A DNA stretch of 34,078 nt. Source: Desulfuromonas sp. (GTDB taxonomy: Bacteria > Desulfobacterota > Desulfuromonadia > Desulfuromonadales > BM501). The position numbers and the translations under genes were made by a program. Below the pieces are notes generated by a model. It was not told the DNA's origin and did not search any database. It saw only the letters and a program-made list of their open reading frames with translations. This document shows, piece by piece, positions 1-26,734 of the stretch. The stretch is taken from the NCBI RefSeq assembly GCF_002868845.1, contig NZ_PKUB01000043.1, positions 1-34,078 on the forward strand. The letters run 5' to 3'. Numbering within the stretch: position 1 is the first letter of the stretch; the number at the start of each line of letters is the position of its first letter.

Positions 1-2006
1 CTGCGAAAGAGCAGGGCGAGAAGAGCCGTCACCACCAGGCAGGCCAGGACGATGAAACGCAGAAAGTCGCGGCCGACCGCGGTCCCCACCGCGTCGCCGA
101 AGCGGCTCTGGGAGACGAGGCGCACCCCCTCGGGAAGCTGCCCTCCCCCGGCGAACCGGGCGGTCAGCTCGGGGTCGTCCGGGACGAGGGTGAGGAGCCG
201 CACAACCCCTTCCCCCTCCAGAAGCATGGCGTCGAGCAGCTCGCCGAGCCCGGCGGCGCGCAGGTCTCCGGGGGTCACCGGCGGTGGCGCCTCCTCCAAT
301 GCGGCGAAGAAGGGGTCGAAAGCCCGCGGCGAAAAGCCCAGCGGCGCCCCCGCCCTGTCGAGCCCGGCCCGCAGCGGCTCGCGCCTCCCGCTCCAGAAAT
401 CGACCCAGCCCCGGCGGTTGGCCTCCTGGGTGGCCTCCGACGGCAGCAGCGGGGCGAGGCTGACGATGCGCGCGTCGGGAAAATCCCGGAGCAGCCCGGC
501 GAAGAGCCGGTCGTTGACCTGCAGGGCCCCCTCCAGATCGTTCCCCTCGGCGAAGAGCATGGCCTGGCCGCGCAGATCGCCCCAGGCGTTGCGCAGCCCG
601 TCCTCGGCGGCGCGCAGGTCGGCGGGAACCGAGCCGAGGCTGCGCAGGCTGCCGTCGAAATGGAGCCGGGTCCCCTGCCAGGCGCCCAGGGCCAGCAGAA
701 CCACCCAGACGGCGACGATGGCCCGGCGCCCTCGCCGTCCAGGGGACGGAAGACGCAGGGTGCGGCGGACGCCCTCCTCCCCGGCGCTGCCGACCAGATG
801 GGGCAGGGCGAAGAGGGAGAGAAGGAGCGCCGCGGCGATCCCCGCCAGGGAGAAGACCGCCAGCTGGCGCTGCCCGGGCAGGTCGGATAAAAGCAGCACG
901 GCGAAGGCCCCGAGAGTGGTCAGGCCCCCGAAGAGCAGCGGCCGGCTGACCCGCTCCAGCACCGCGGCCCGGTCGGGGCCCCCGTGGCGCAGGGCGAAAT
1001 AGACGTGCAGGGCGAAGTCGACGGTGATCCCGAGGAGCACCGCCCCGAAGCCGATGGTGACCCCCGAGACCGCCGGGTAGACCAGGGCGGTCGCCATGGC
1101 GGCCAGGCCTAGCACCGAGACCGGCACGGCGAAGACGAAGAGCGCCCGCCAGCTTCGCAGGAAGAGGAGGAAGAGGGCGGCGATGGAGAGGCCGGAAACC
1201 CCCAGCACCAGCGCCAGGTCCCCCTGGATCGCCTCGGCGTTGGCCACGGTGTAGCGGTGGCCGCTGATCAGCTCGGCCCGCACCCCGCCGGGAAGGGCCT
1301 TCTCCGCCAGTTCCTCGAAACGGTCGAGGAGCTGGCGGCTCGTTCCGAAGTCGGTGATCGGCACCGGGGTTTCGGCCACGACGAGGGCGTTGTCCCCGTC
1401 CGCGCTCAGGAAGCTCCCCCCCTCCAGGCGCGCCTTCTCCACCGGGTTCAGAAAGCGCAGCTTCTCGAGAGCGAGGGTCCGGGTCTCCAGGGGGTCGCGC
1501 CGCAGCAGTTTCTTGACCAGCATCCCCTCCGGGGAGAGGAGCCGGGCGTAGCCTCTCTGCAGGCCGCCCTCCAGGGCCTCCGGGTCCAGCCGCCCCTCGA
1601 GAGCGGCGAGATCCTGCGCCGTGGCCAGGTTGGGCAGCGCCTCCGTCAGCCAGGGAAGGAGCCCGCTCTGCCGCGCCGCTGCCGGGCCGCTCGCCGCGGC
1701 GCTGAAGTAGGGCGGGCCCATGGCGGCGGCGAGACGGTCGGCCCCCGCCAGCAGGGCCTCCCGGTCGCCTCCGGAGCTCAGGTTGACCAGCACCTTGCGC
1801 GCGAAGGGAGCCTTTTGAAGCAGCCGGAAATCGGCGGCCACATCGCTGCCCCGGTCGGGCAGGAGCGCCTCGACGTCCTCCCGCACCTCGACCGTGGAGA
1901 GACCGACGAAGCCGAGCAGGACCGTCGCCAGGCAGACCCCGAGCAGCGCCGGCCGGCGGCGGCTCCAGCGGCGGTAGGCGGCTGAGATCAGCGTCCCGAC
2001 AGGCAT
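1..2006 (-). CDS. MMPL/RND-family exporter of the polyene operon (3' part cut by window edge)
   Basis: The reading frame opens at an ATG (complement of 2004-2006) four bases after the LolA stop, with a GAGG ribosome site, and stays open to base 1, giving 668 residues without a stop. Residues about 17-36 form one membrane helix. A large periplasmic-type domain follows, then a cluster of hydrophobic helices at about 250-370, a second soluble domain, and a further helix at about 649-668. This is the duplicated topology of MMPL/RND exporters (COG4258), which are usually near 770-800 residues, so roughly the last 100-130 are missing. In aryl polyene clusters such exporters are paired with a LolA-like protein and are thought to move the lipid-linked pigment outwards. 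That role is inferred from context here. It is the last operon gene visible, and more cluster genes may lie to the left. Confidence 0.88.
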   Translation of the reverse strand, partial: MPVGTLISAAYRRWSRRRPALLGVCLATVLLGFVGLSTVEVREDVEALLPDRGSDVAADFRLLQKAPFARKVLVNLSSGGDREALLAGADRLAAAMGPPYFSAAASGPAAARQSGLLPWLTEALPNLATAQDLAALEGRLDPEALEGGLQRGYARLLSPEGMLVKKLLRRDPLETRTLALEKLRFLNPVEKARLEGGSFLSADGDNALVVAETPVPITDFGTSRQLLDRFEELAEKALPGGVRAELISGHRYTVANAEAIQGDLALVLGVSGLSIAALFLLFLRSWRALFVFAVPVSVLGLAAMATALVYPAVSGVTIGFGAVLLGITVDFALHVYFALRHGGPDRAAVLERVSRPLLFGGLTTLGAFAVLLLSDLPGQRQLAVFSLAGIAAALLLSLFALPHLVGSAGEEGVRRTLRLPSPGRRGRRAIVAVWVVLLALGAWQGTRLHFDGSLRSLGSVPADLRAAEDGLRNAWGDLRGQAMLFAEGNDLEGALQVNDRLFAGLLRDFPDARIVSLAPLLPSEATQEANRRGWVDFWSGRREPLRAGLDRAGAPLGFSPRAFDPFFAALEEAPPPVTPGDLRAAGLGELLDAMLLEGEGVVRLLTLVPDDPELTARFAGGGQLPEGVRLVSQSRFGDAVGTAVGRDFLRFIVLACLVVTALLALLFR

Positions 2007-23080: not shown

Positions 23081-23401
23081 ATGCTGCGGAGAATTTTCCC
23101 CCTTGTCACGCTGTGCGGAGTTCTGATTGCCGCTGTCGCCTTTGCCGCCCCCCCCGGCAAGGTCCTCGAATTCAACAAAAGCCCGATGGGCACCGTCCTC
23201 TTCGACGGCCAGAAGCACAAGGACGCCGGGGCGATCTGCAAGGACTGCCACAACAAGGACATGTTCCCGAAGATGAAGCAGGGAACGATAAATATCACCA
23301 TGGAGGAACTCTACGCCGGCCGCCTGTGCGGAGTCTGCCACAACGGCGAACGGGCCTTCGGAACCAAAGGCAACTGCACCAAGTGCCACGTCACGAAGTG
23401 A
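23081..23401 (+). CDS. Secreted triheme c7-type cytochrome
   Basis: A 106-residue protein with a signal peptide (residues 1-22, ending VAFA) and three heme-binding motifs, CKDCH (53-57), CGVCH (83-87) and CTKCH (99-103), so it is a periplasmic or extracellular triheme cytochrome. The pattern MGTVLFDxxKH, then CxxCH, then a CGVCHNGERAF block is that of the c7-type triheme domain found in Geobacter-group electron transfer proteins. It has an AAGGAGG ribosome site and follows glcF by 76 bases, so it may accept electrons from 2-hydroxyacid oxidation. Only one His (H46) lies outside the heme motifs, fewer than three bis-His hemes need, so other axial ligands such as Met are likely. Confidence 0.9.
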   Translation: MLRRIFPLVTLCGVLIAAVAFAAPPGKVLEFNKSPMGTVLFDGQKHKDAGAICKDCHNKDMFPKMKQGTINITMEELYAGRLCGVCHNGERAFGTKGNCTKCHVTK

Positions 23402-23569: not shown

Positions 23570-24298
23570 ATGAGCAAAGCCCTGGGACTTCTCTCCGGAG
23601 GCCTCGACAGCAGCCTGGCGGCGATGACCCTTCTCCGCCAGGGAGTGGAGGTCACCGGCATCGCCTTTGTCACCCCCTTTTTCGGCTCGGCCAAGGCCGA
23701 GCAGGCCGCCCGCCAGATCGGAATCCCCCTGATCGTTCAGGACATCGGCGAGGTCCACCTGGAAATGGTGAAAAACCCCCGCTACGGCTACGGCAAAAAC
23801 ATGAATCCCTGCATCGACTGCCACGCCATGATGTTCCGCCTCGCCGGGGAGGTCATGGCGGGCAAAGGCTTCGACTTCCTCTTCTCCGGGGAGGTGCTGG
23901 GCCAGCGCCCCATGAGCCAGAACCTCAACGCCCTGCGGTCGGTGGCCAACTACTCGGGCCACCCCGATCGCATTCTGCGCCCCCTCAGCGCCCGCCTGCT
24001 GGCGATCACCGCGATGGAGGAAGAAGGCCTCGTGGACCGGGAGCGCCTGCTCGACATCCAGGGCCGCTCCCGCAAGCCCCAGGAGAAGCTTGCCCGGGAA
24101 TGGGGGCTGACCGACTACCCTTCTTCGGGAGGAGGCTGCCTGCTTACGGAGAAGTCGATCTCCAACCGCCTGCGGGACCTTTTCGACCATCGGCCCGAAG
24201 CCACGGTAACCGACGTGGAGCTGCTCAAGCTGGGCCGCCAGTTCCGTCTCTCGGAAACGGCCAAGCTGACCCTCGGCCGCAACCAGGCGGACAATTAA
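23570..24298 (+). CDS. PP-loop ATPase related to tRNA thiolation enzymes (MnmA/ThiI-like), prematurely stopped
   Basis: A 242-residue product with the PP-loop SGGLDSS (9-15), NPCIDCHAMMF with Cys81/Cys84, and a third conserved Cys190 in SGGGCLLTE. This is the layout of MnmA/ThiI-type enzymes that adenylate and sulfurate tRNA uridine, though relatives of this branch are not characterised as far as I know. The ATG has AGGAG seven bases before it. The frame ends with TAA (24296-24298) right after LTLGRNQADN, but the same frame continues to 24547 with a coding-like sequence resembling the NFACT-R/DUF814 domain. The stop therefore cuts a larger two-domain protein of about 325 residues. It is not LarE, whose motifs differ. 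Confidence 0.85.
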   Translation: MSKALGLLSGGLDSSLAAMTLLRQGVEVTGIAFVTPFFGSAKAEQAARQIGIPLIVQDIGEVHLEMVKNPRYGYGKNMNPCIDCHAMMFRLAGEVMAGKGFDFLFSGEVLGQRPMSQNLNALRSVANYSGHPDRILRPLSARLLAITAMEEEGLVDRERLLDIQGRSRKPQEKLAREWGLTDYPSSGGGCLLTEKSISNRLRDLFDHRPEATVTDVELLKLGRQFRLSETAKLTLGRNQADN

Positions 24299-24547
24299 GC
24301 GCTCAAGGCCATGGCCCGCCCGGAAGACCTGCTCTTGCGCTGCATCGACGTCTCCGGTCCCCTCGGCCTGGTCAGCGGCACCCCGGACACCGCCGCCCTG
24401 GAGTTGGCCGGGAGCCTGGTCGCCTCCTACGGCAAGGGCCAGGACCGGCCCGAGGTGGGAATCCTCGTCCAGCAGGCCGACGCTTCGAGCCGGCTGACCG
24501 TCAAACCCGCCGAGCGCGGCCAGGCCGGGGAACTTCTCATCGCCTGA
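24299..24547 (+). pseudogene. Separated C-terminal domain (NFACT-R/DUF814-like) of the PP-loop protein
   Basis: Directly after the in-frame TAA the same frame stays open for 82 codons: ALKAMARPEDLLLRC, then DVSGPLGLV, and a C-terminus with VGILVQQAD. Taken with the preceding GRNQADN it matches the usual flow of an NFACT-R-like domain, in which a residue such as Glu would be expected at the stop position (one base from TAA). An internal ATG at 24311 has no good ribosome site. It is best read as the severed C-terminus of the upstream gene, by nonsense mutation or sequence error. Confidence 0.7.
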
Positions 24548-24681: not shown

Positions 24682-26577
24682 CTACCGGGTTGAAAAACTC
24701 CGCACCTCGCTCTCGGCGACCCCCTCCCGACCGTCGTCGACCGTGACCTTCCAGAAATAGGTCGTCGCCGGATCGAGGCCGGAAACGGTCGCCTTGCCGA
24801 CCGGCTCGGAGGAACCGCCCCCCCCGCCGCAGGACAACAAAAAGAGGGCCGCTCCGGCCACCAGGACCAGCAGCGCCGTCCTTCCGCGCCTTCTCCCGCG
24901 GCACGGAACCACCCAGAGGAGCAGGCCGCCTGCGCCGGCCAGGAGCGCACCCCCGGCGATCGGGGCGAAGGCCGCGACGACGAGAGACTCGCTGTCGCTG
25001 AAATCGGAAAACTTCGAGATGAGCAGAGTGGTGGTCAGCGCGTCCCCGTCGGGGTCGCTGGGCAGATTCCAGCGGAAGGTCACCGTGGTATCGAGCCCGA
25101 GCGCCCCGTCGGGCGGATCCAGCAGGACGACCGGGTCGGGGGGCCGGTTGCCGAGTTCCGCCTGCAGGGCATCCAGTGACGCCGGAGCGTTGACCAGGCC
25201 GAAACCGGCGTCGTTGTCAGGGCCCTGGACCCCCAGGTCGGACGCCCCCTGGCGAAGCACCGTCTCCAGCAGCGCCACCGGGGTCTCGGGAAAGGCCTCC
25301 AGCAGAAGGGCCGCCACCCCCGCCACGTGGGGCGCCGCGAAGGACGTGCCGTCCACGAAGACGTAGGAATCGGTGAAAAGGCCGCCCAGGGTGATGTCGG
25401 CGGTCTTGACGAATTCCCCGGGCGCCACCAGGTCGGGGAAAACGGCGCCGTCGCAGGCAGAGGGCCCGCGGCTGCTCGAAAATGTGACCTCCAGGTCGTT
25501 GCCGACCGATCCCACGGAGAGTACGTTCGGATCGTTGGCCGGGCTGATGCTGGTCTCCGGGTCCGGCCCCATGTTGCCCGCGGCGAAGACCTGGAGGATG
25601 CCGGCGCTGCGCAGGGCCCGGAGGTCCTCGTCGAAGTCGTCGAAGCAGACCCCGGGAAAGTCCTCGAAACCCCAGGAGTTGTTGACCACGTCCGGGGCGT
25701 CGTCGGTGTCGGGGTCGCCGTCGGGGTCGAGCAGCCACTGGAACCCCCGGTGGATGGCGCTGATCGAGGCCAGGTTGTAGTCGTCGAAGATTTTCACCGC
25801 GATCCAGCGGGCCCCCGGCGCCACCCCGATGGCCGCCCCGCCCGCGTCTCCCCCCAGGACGATGCCCATGGTCTGGGTGCCGTTACCGTCGCCGTCGCAG
25901 GGCCGATCGGCGCTCGCCTCGCAGGCGGTGCAGTCGAACCCGGAGGGGCTGCAGTCGGCGGCAAAGGGATTGAACCAGCTGTTGTCCCCCCCCCGCCACC
26001 TCTCGGCCAGATCGGGGTGATCCGGATCGACGCCGGTATCCATGCCGGCCACCACCACGCCGTTGCCGGTGTAGCCCAGAGCCCAGAGCTGCTCGGCGCC
26101 CACGATGGAGATGTTCCCTTCAACGCCGTGGGCGGCGGGGGCAGGGGTTGCGGGCCGCCGCAAAGTCGCGTCGAGAGCGACCCCGGCCACCTCGGGCCGC
26201 TCGGCCAGGCTGCGGATCACCTCGGCCGGAGCCGATACCGCCAGGCCGTTGATGATCCACAGCGGCTGGAGGCGCTCGACGCCCCGGGTGCGCAGAAAGG
26301 CCCGGCAGGGGCCCTGGACCTGCTCCGCACCGGCGCGAAGCCTTTTGACCACCCCGGTGCGGCGCTCCCCCCTGGAGAGGCCCTTCAGCCCCTCGAGGTC
26401 GGCCCGCCCGGCAAAGGTGACGATCACCGGGACCTTCTCGCCCGCGGCAGCGCCGTCCAGAACGGCCCGCAGCCCGGGATCGAGGACGGCGCCGAAAGCG
26501 GGCCGCTCCGGCCCGGAAAGAAGGGCAAAGACCCCCAGCGTCAGCAGCAGGACCGTTCGCCATTGCAAAAGATACAT
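24682..26577 (-). CDS. Secreted subtilase-like (S8) protein with altered active site and C-terminal Fn3-like domain
   Basis: This 631-residue protein has a signal peptide (1-29), a pro-region (about 45-140) and an S8 domain (about 155-470). Asp180 in GMDTGVDPDHPDL, Asn335 in AAGNMG and Ser412 in GTSFAAPHVAG are the expected catalytic Asp, oxyanion Asn and Ser. The HGTHVAG motif, however, reads NGTQTMG (232-238), so the catalytic His is Asn232. The protein may be inactive or use another base. Residues about 478-631 resemble an Fn3-like domain, ending LDPATTYFWKVTVDDG, but it is split by two hydrophobic segments (about 541-557 and 567-582) and a lipobox-like LLSCGGGGG. The ATG at 26577 follows AGGGGGG. 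It sits alone between two terminators. Confidence 0.87.
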   Translation of the reverse strand: MYLLQWRTVLLLTLGVFALLSGPERPAFGAVLDPGLRAVLDGAAAGEKVPVIVTFAGRADLEGLKGLSRGERRTGVVKRLRAGAEQVQGPCRAFLRTRGVERLQPLWIINGLAVSAPAEVIRSLAERPEVAGVALDATLRRPATPAPAAHGVEGNISIVGAEQLWALGYTGNGVVVAGMDTGVDPDHPDLAERWRGGDNSWFNPFAADCSPSGFDCTACEASADRPCDGDGNGTQTMGIVLGGDAGGAAIGVAPGARWIAVKIFDDYNLASISAIHRGFQWLLDPDGDPDTDDAPDVVNNSWGFEDFPGVCFDDFDEDLRALRSAGILQVFAAGNMGPDPETSISPANDPNVLSVGSVGNDLEVTFSSSRGPSACDGAVFPDLVAPGEFVKTADITLGGLFTDSYVFVDGTSFAAPHVAGVAALLLEAFPETPVALLETVLRQGASDLGVQGPDNDAGFGLVNAPASLDALQAELGNRPPDPVVLLDPPDGALGLDTTVTFRWNLPSDPDGDALTTTLLISKFSDFSDSESLVVAAFAPIAGGALLAGAGGLLLWVVPCRGRRRGRTALLVLVAGAALFLLSCGGGGGSSEPVGKATVSGLDPATTYFWKVTVDDGREGVAESEVRSFSTR

Positions 26578-26670
26578 AATCCCCCCTGTGAAAACCCAAC
26601 CGACCCGTGTCCAGAAGTTTTCCAATAGTACCACATCCCTAGCACCGGGAGCGGGCCGCGACAGGAAACG

Positions 26671-26705
26671 AAAAAGCCCCCCGGACGATCCGGGGGGCTC
26701 TTTTT
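26671..26705 (-). terminator. Rho-independent terminator of groESL
   Basis: On the minus strand GCCCCCCGGA pairs with TCCGGGGGGC around a TCG loop and is followed by TTTTTCG. It lies 30 bases after the groEL stop and upstream of the subtilase gene. Confidence 0.88.
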
Positions 26706-26734
26706 CTAGCAATACAGGAAAGCCTGGCAGGCAC

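Follow-up and report, generated by a model that had tools for sequence, protein, structure and literature searches.

A Desulfuromonas subtilase with a lipo-invert C-terminal tail, a candidate lipid-anchoring module set within a predicted Fn3-type domain

The subtilase gene and the layout of its tail

The window, a 34,078-nucleotide stretch of Desulfuromonas sp. DNA, carries on its minus strand a gene for a secreted subtilase whose C-terminal tail contains two hydrophobic segments (TM1 and TM2) and a lipobox-like cysteine. The open reading frame spans 24682-26712 (676 aa) and opens further upstream at a TTG. We took as the start the ATG at 26577, which is preceded by a purine-rich stretch; this choice gives a protein of 631 aa with the tail cysteine at residue 583. 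The features of the gene are as follows.

24682..26577, minus strand: gene for the secreted, tail-bearing subtilase, 631 aa, from the chosen ATG at 26577
26488..26577, minus strand: N-terminal Sec-type signal peptide MYLLQWRTVLLLTLGVFALLSGPERPAFGA, without a lipobox, read by eye from the sequence
25198..26067, minus strand: peptidase S8 domain (PF00082)
24988..25149, minus strand: first half of the predicted split Fn3 domain, spanning residues 477-530 (the profile match starts at 477; pLDDT 86-98)
24904..24987, minus strand: TM1, Gly/Ala-rich and hydrophobic, within residues 531-558 (from the sequence)
24880..24903, minus strand: basic loop CRGRRRGR, residues 559-566 (from the sequence; charge +1 to +5 in 65 aligned rows)
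24832..24879, minus strand: TM2, resembling a lipoprotein signal, residues 567-582 (from the sequence)
24829..24831, minus strand: Cys583, position +1 of the lipobox (65/65 and 70/70 aligned rows, 100/100 distinct tails)
24685..24828, minus strand: GGGGGSS linker and predicted second Fn3 half, residues 584-631 (profile match and fold)

The S8 model PF00082 matched the window protein at 152.5 bits against a gathering score of 21.8 (E 2e-44), placing it in that family. In the tail, the first Fn3 half DPDGDALTTTLLISKFSDFSDSE is followed by TM1 SLVVAAFAPIAGGALLAGAGGLLLWVVP, the loop CRGRRRGR, TM2 TALLVLVAGAALFLLS, C583 and then GGGGGSSEPVGKATVSGLDPATTYFWKV, with TM2 running into the cysteine as LLSC(583)GGGGG. 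The initial annotation had described an insert between two Fn3-like halves, and the insert, the order of its elements, their coordinates and Cys583 were all confirmed in the sequence. The tail is C-terminal, the profile match extending to the last residue, 631. As in a lipoprotein signal, there is a small residue at -1, a cysteine at +1 and a basic and a hydrophobic stretch ahead of it. The signal is not N-terminal: the cysteine is residue 583 of 631, and the N-terminal signal peptide has no lipobox.

Two plus-strand features lie beyond the subtilase gene. An open reading frame at 23570-24547 has a start that by eye is PP-loop-like (SGGLDSS); it contains an in-frame TAA at 24296-24298 and is open from there on to 24547, so that the gene is interrupted or misread at this point. 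The other, at 23081-23401, encodes a protein of 106 aa that looks exported and contains three CxxCH motifs, by eye a small c-type cytochrome.

We predicted the fold of the uncut tail with AlphaFold2, using 16 sequences, no templates and one chain rather than two separate halves. Mean pLDDT was 80.8 and pTM 0.65, with values of 86-98 in blocks of the two halves and 50-75 in the insert. The best Foldseek match of the model was an FnIII domain (2.7e-4). The first-ranked VIA-align match had a Z of 11.4 and an rmsd of 2.5 over 101 residues (model 15..166) and spanned the insert, and the best 50 VIA-align rows were mostly FnIII-containing chains. In the predicted structure, both halves form one Fn3-type beta sandwich and the insert lies in a loop. 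None of the Pfam Fn3 models reached its cut-off on the window protein (the best Fn3-like match, PF16656, scored 19.6 against 30 bits), and the Fn3 assignment rests on the predicted fold.

Relation to NF058595, recurrence and conservation

The NCBIfam model NF058595, "lipo-invert putative C-terminal anchoring domain" (invert_tail), matched residues 574-645 of the 676-aa reading frame at E 4e-6. The window protein scored 27.2 bits, or 32.3 bits in a six-frame search, and so missed the curated cut-off of 37 bits. The suggestion that standard annotation has no name for such a tail is therefore half right: NCBIfam names it, but the window protein falls below the cut-off. Compared by the title and positions of NF058595 alone, model and window tail agree in name, C-terminal place and matched region and differ in that sub-threshold score. 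L014, a row of our alignment A1 (19 true tails, identified by reading loci), exceeds the NF058595 cut-off at 37.8 bits and belongs to an 18-row profile, built without the window protein, that scores the window at 119 bits. Judged from these sequence scores, the window tail is homologous to NF058595 and, given the cut-off, not a formal member of it. A literature search returned nothing describing the lipo-invert tail and no use of the term "lipo-invert"; the tail has been named by NCBIfam, and its mechanism seems unexplored in the literature.

At E 0.001, NF058595 matched in 160 of 194 genomes, mostly at ordinary N-terminal lipoproteins, and two matches were above the cut-off; among control genomes it matched in 14 of 14 at E 10 and in five at E 0.001. 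Of the two matches over the cut-off, one, the N-terminal lipoprotein L013, scored 41.5 bits, with true tails under the threshold, indicating that NF058595 admits false positives and misses true tails. We read the nine next-best matches in the window's own genome: eight were N-terminal lipoprotein-type signals, which argues that TM2 resembles such signals, and the ninth (L008) was ambiguous. Because NF058595 also matches ordinary lipoproteins, we used our own alignments for searching.

The A1 profile at 1e-6 gave matches in 78 of the 136 genomes of the window's order, a tally that includes single-half matches and ordinary lipoprotein signals; assigned by hand, true-tail carriers numbered 67 of 136. 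The window's own genome has one tail. At 1e-8, at least 16 of 395 genomes matched in a phylum sample in which, in most cases, up to eight candidates per genome were scored: at least nine of the same order and at least three of one other genus with full tails, and at least four with a single Fn3 half only. In the phylum of a Thermodesulfovibrio record, where in most cases up to 14 candidates per genome were scored, at least 22 of 245 genomes matched at 1e-15 (among the matches listed, up to eight per genome). A scan of named records yielded 80 loci, 15 of them with a full tail; the matches include Desulfuromonadales, Geopsychrobacter, Geoalkalibacter, Nitrospirae, Thermodesulfovibrio, Deferribacteres, Desulforapulum and Acidiferrobacteraceae, mostly as MAGs, in which binning errors are possible. 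Profiles built without the window protein scored it at 119 bits (18 rows), 150 bits (15 rows) and 131 bits (31 rows, other lineages only). The initial annotation had the impression that similar inserts occur in other Desulfuromonadia surface proteins; they do so in the order and also well outside it. A hairpin followed by the cysteine recurred in 100 distinct tails homologous over about 160 residues, which rules out chance. At one locus (G806:C52:67563-77121), four tails sit on four adjacent genes encoding proteins of 869-935 aa, a local expansion.

The cysteine was present in all 65 rows aligned from the order (61 full matches, the partially listed L097 and L101, and the added L140 and L141), which represent 64 distinct rows because L058 and L120 are one gene. 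Position -1 was A in 29, S in 23 and G in 13, and position +2 was G in 62 and S in three. Across these rows the loop had a net charge of +1 to +5, the flanks were negative on average, and the cysteine lay 46-94 residues from the C-terminal end. We also aligned 70 non-redundant rows from all lineages, a set that overlaps the 65 and leaves out a small type of host protein (described below), L259 (frame incomplete), L236 and L240. Here too the cysteine was invariant (70/70), preceded by S (42), A (21) or G (7). The pattern [ASG]C[GS] followed TM2 in 100 of 100 distinct tails, 36 of them outside the 65-row set, all from loci fetched with profiles that included the Cys column. When the profile Cys column was not used, the retrieved loci contained 99 reading frames with a C-terminal Fn3 half, 95 with a hydrophobic insert and four without. 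A lipobox was scored in all but one of the 95, and in that exception (L036) AACGGG can be read by eye. Glycines behind the cysteine are dispensable, the run being replaced by other residues in eight members from the order and in many from other lineages.

The motif AG.G occurred in TM1 of 29 of the 70 non-small rows (shuffle mean 5.2, maximum 13; kinship uncorrected) and in one of 30 small-type rows, which is not beyond chance, and we rejected it as a universal TM1 motif. No motif ahead of TM1 common to both branches was found in the aligned rows. Three small-type paralogues (L135:1-468, L136:3538-4296 and L137:3469-4161) have a hydrophilic charged loop in place of the hairpin and cysteine and are natural insert-free forms. 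In a relative from genome G023 (L139:3192-5175, minus strand) the reading frame shifts within the Gly run that follows the cysteine; this relative was left out of the counts.

Host proteins, neighbouring genes and candidate partner enzymes

Tails were found on subtilase hosts (the window protein and many relatives) and on trypsin, FG-GAP, SBBP propeller, UnbV/PKD, sortilin-like, GLUG, glucose/sorbosone dehydrogenase and Fn3 hosts; of the ten hosts scanned, one (L222) matched no family. Subtilase relatives in other lineages end differently, as judged by eye. That so many ectodomains share a single tail is typical of a sorting or anchoring module. The tail-bearing proteins are of two types, small (about 300 aa) and large. 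Of the two-component pair PrsK and PrsR, PrsK was nearby in 17 of 20 small-type loci (L095-L114) and PrsR in 15, often with an exosortase or EpsI in the vicinity. At 20 large-type loci, some of them on short contigs, there was no PrsK and there were two weaker PrsR-like matches. The locus of the window protease has no PrsK/PrsR neighbourhood. For the reference PrsK and PrsR, one protein each passed the TIGR02916 or TIGR02915 cut-off. Both genes are assigned to the PEP-CTERM system in PMC1569441, so a link between the small type and exopolysaccharide-linked surface proteins is probable. Scored for a sigma-54-like site, 7 of 29 upstream regions of the small type and none of 23 of the large type reached at least 9 of 11, a weak signal from a scan that dropped regions under 400 bases and used mononucleotide shuffles only.

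The initial annotation proposed that the lipobox points to processing, membrane anchoring or sorting and that a protease or sortase might co-occur with the insert. The lipobox is conserved enough to point to processing or anchoring; a dedicated partner was not supported. Matches to the exosortase family PF09721 were present in 50 of the 136 genomes of the order, of which 46 strong ones were kept and four weak ones (G000, G101, G167 and G227) dropped; the window's own genome has two partial matches only. Strong matches were found in 31 of 67 carriers versus 15 of 69 non-carriers (odds ratio 3.1, Fisher p 0.004; kinship uncorrected, several genomes incomplete). We rejected exosortase as a required partner because 36 of the 67 carriers have no strong match. 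LspA matched in 119 of 136 genomes, mostly once and in a minority two or three times (once in the window's own genome), and rhomboid families matched in 134 of 136 (three times in the own genome). Both are so nearly ubiquitous that they are uninformative about a second LspA or a rhomboid as dedicated partner, and the absence of a shared motif ahead of TM1 likewise counts against one. Searched against NCBIfam up to E 10, where HMMER filters drop most weak matches, the window protein matched no PEP-CTERM, GlyGly-CTERM or MYXO-CTERM model.

Models for anchoring by the tail

Classic N-terminal lipoproteins, handled by Lgt, LspA and Lol, carry a charged n-region, a hydrophobic h-region, a lipobox and a cysteine. 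The window tail has all of these, with a Cys-Gly like the lipoprotein-type signals of its own genome, but here the signal lies within the chain, some 50 residues before the C-terminus, behind another TM and inside a folding domain. On balance, we lean towards the view that the lipo-invert tail is a C-terminal lipid-anchoring module of secreted proteins, in which strand complementation by a lipidated half-domain would keep the ectodomain attached. Sec would export the protease by its N-terminal signal peptide; TM1 would then stop transfer, leaving the Arg loop in the cytoplasm, and TM2 would re-enter the membrane like a lipoprotein signal, as hydropathy and charge suggest. The resulting topology (N-out, loop-in, C-out) would bring Cys583 to the periplasmic side of the inner membrane. 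The conserved lipobox suggests that Lgt could add diacylglycerol to Cys583 and that LspA could cut before it, turning the last 49 residues into a small lipoprotein, on the assumption that both enzymes act on an internal signal. The lipidated second half would stay paired with the protease-borne first half as one Fn3 domain, so that the lipid would hold the enzyme; the fold was predicted for the uncut chain, and pairing of the cut halves is our inference. Leaving the inner membrane would require a cut in TM1 too, otherwise the product would stay bound there. Under the E. coli Lol rule, Gly at +2 allows outer-membrane sorting, and the Gly found at +2 would permit it here. Several points count against a lipid anchor: a hairpin left uncut would tether the protein with no lipid needed; a crude test flags a lipobox-like site at the N-terminus in 3 of 65 hosts; the window protein stays below the NF058595 cut-off; and the fold prediction covers a single chain and draws on 16 sequences.

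A stronger form of the lipid-anchor model, which we put forward tentatively, is a natural split-domain anchor. Two enzymes would excise the hairpin, LspA at the lipobox and another protease at TM1, and the ectodomain would be held by beta-strand complementation alone. Engineered Fn3 domains that are opened at a loop can reassemble from the two pieces; those are laboratory constructs, and the split here would be natural and lipid-bearing. Our literature search found no precedent for Fn3 fragment complementation.

The hairpin could instead be a permanent inner-membrane anchor, with TM1 retained, Cys583 perhaps lipidated or cut, and the protease working from the periplasmic side of that membrane. 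For the uncut chain the prediction is indeed a single Fn3 domain that carries the insert in a loop, no TM1 motif is common to all members, and the genome surveys found no second enzyme. A plain anchor needs no lipobox, however, and the lipobox is present in all 100 distinct tails; the AG.G motif in TM1 of one branch (29 of 70 rows) also fits this arrangement poorly, and we regard a permanent anchor as rather unlikely. Retention of the cysteine for a disulphide or for metal binding, without lipidation, has nothing direct in its favour beyond an extra Cys pair in the first Fn3 half of other lineages (two columns, each with Cys in 24 of 70 rows). The cysteine sits at the end of TM2 with A, S or G before it and G or S after it in every distinct tail, as in a lipobox, and many members have no other Cys in their last 170 residues, making such a role very improbable. 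The frameshifted relative L139 shows that single copies can be damaged. A lipoprotein gene joined by chance fusion, frameshift or assembly error was nonetheless rejected as an explanation, since homology over the whole tail extends across many genomes and contigs and profiles lacking the window protein score it at 119, 150 and 131 bits.

The remaining alternative is a tag of the exosortase, rhombosortase or myxosortase type, in which TM1 and the Arg loop are the true signal, an intramembrane sorting enzyme cuts, and the remainder is a by-product. A TM followed by an Arg cluster is the general shape of such tags as described in PMC11980579 and PMC6219818. The MYXO-CTERM tag of secreted proteins, recognised by myxosortase, is described with features that the lipo-invert tail shares, namely an invariant Cys, one TM helix or more and an Arg-rich part; in MYXO-CTERM the Cys comes ahead of a single TM, its lipidation is predicted to precede cleavage, and no lipobox is defined (PMC11980579). 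The lipo-invert Cys, by comparison, follows a second TM, lies in a lipobox and is succeeded by half a domain. GlyGly-CTERM substrates of rhombosortase such as VesB resemble the window protein in being surface serine proteases with a C-terminal membrane tail, in their case with a lipid-like attachment; the tag is described with one TM, a GG-type motif and modification on the new C-terminal Gly (PMC6219818), and this description includes neither the lipobox nor the split domain of the window tail. The lipo-invert tail may work like MYXO-CTERM or GlyGly-CTERM tags. The likeness to PEP-CTERM/exosortase systems lies in the PrsK (17/20) and PrsR (15/20) genes adjoining small-type tails in most loci fetched, genes assigned to that system in PMC1569441, and in the excess of exosortase among carriers (31/67 vs 15/69, p 0.004, kinship uncorrected). 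Against this, no PEP motif and no universal motif ahead of TM1 was seen in the aligned lipo-invert tails, a strong exosortase match is missing from 36 of 67 carriers, PrsK is at none of the 20 large-type loci, and up to E 10 the window protein matches none of the three CTERM models in NCBIfam. Conservation is highest behind TM1, which is not expected of a by-product, and we consider a sorting tag of this kind improbable.

C-terminal sorting tags and N-terminal lipoproteins have been treated as separate routes; the lipo-invert tail joins both in one chain and places the signal inside a folding domain, where predictors restricted to N-termini would miss it. If the tail is processed as the lipid-anchor model proposes, internal signals are substrates for Lgt and LspA, and a separate lipidated fragment can complete a domain. 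Should the split-domain anchor hold, it would be a general non-covalent lipid anchor present in more than one phylum, its internal signal, close to the C-terminus, being used by Lgt and LspA. The tail probably represents a little-explored means of attaching proteins to a bacterial membrane.
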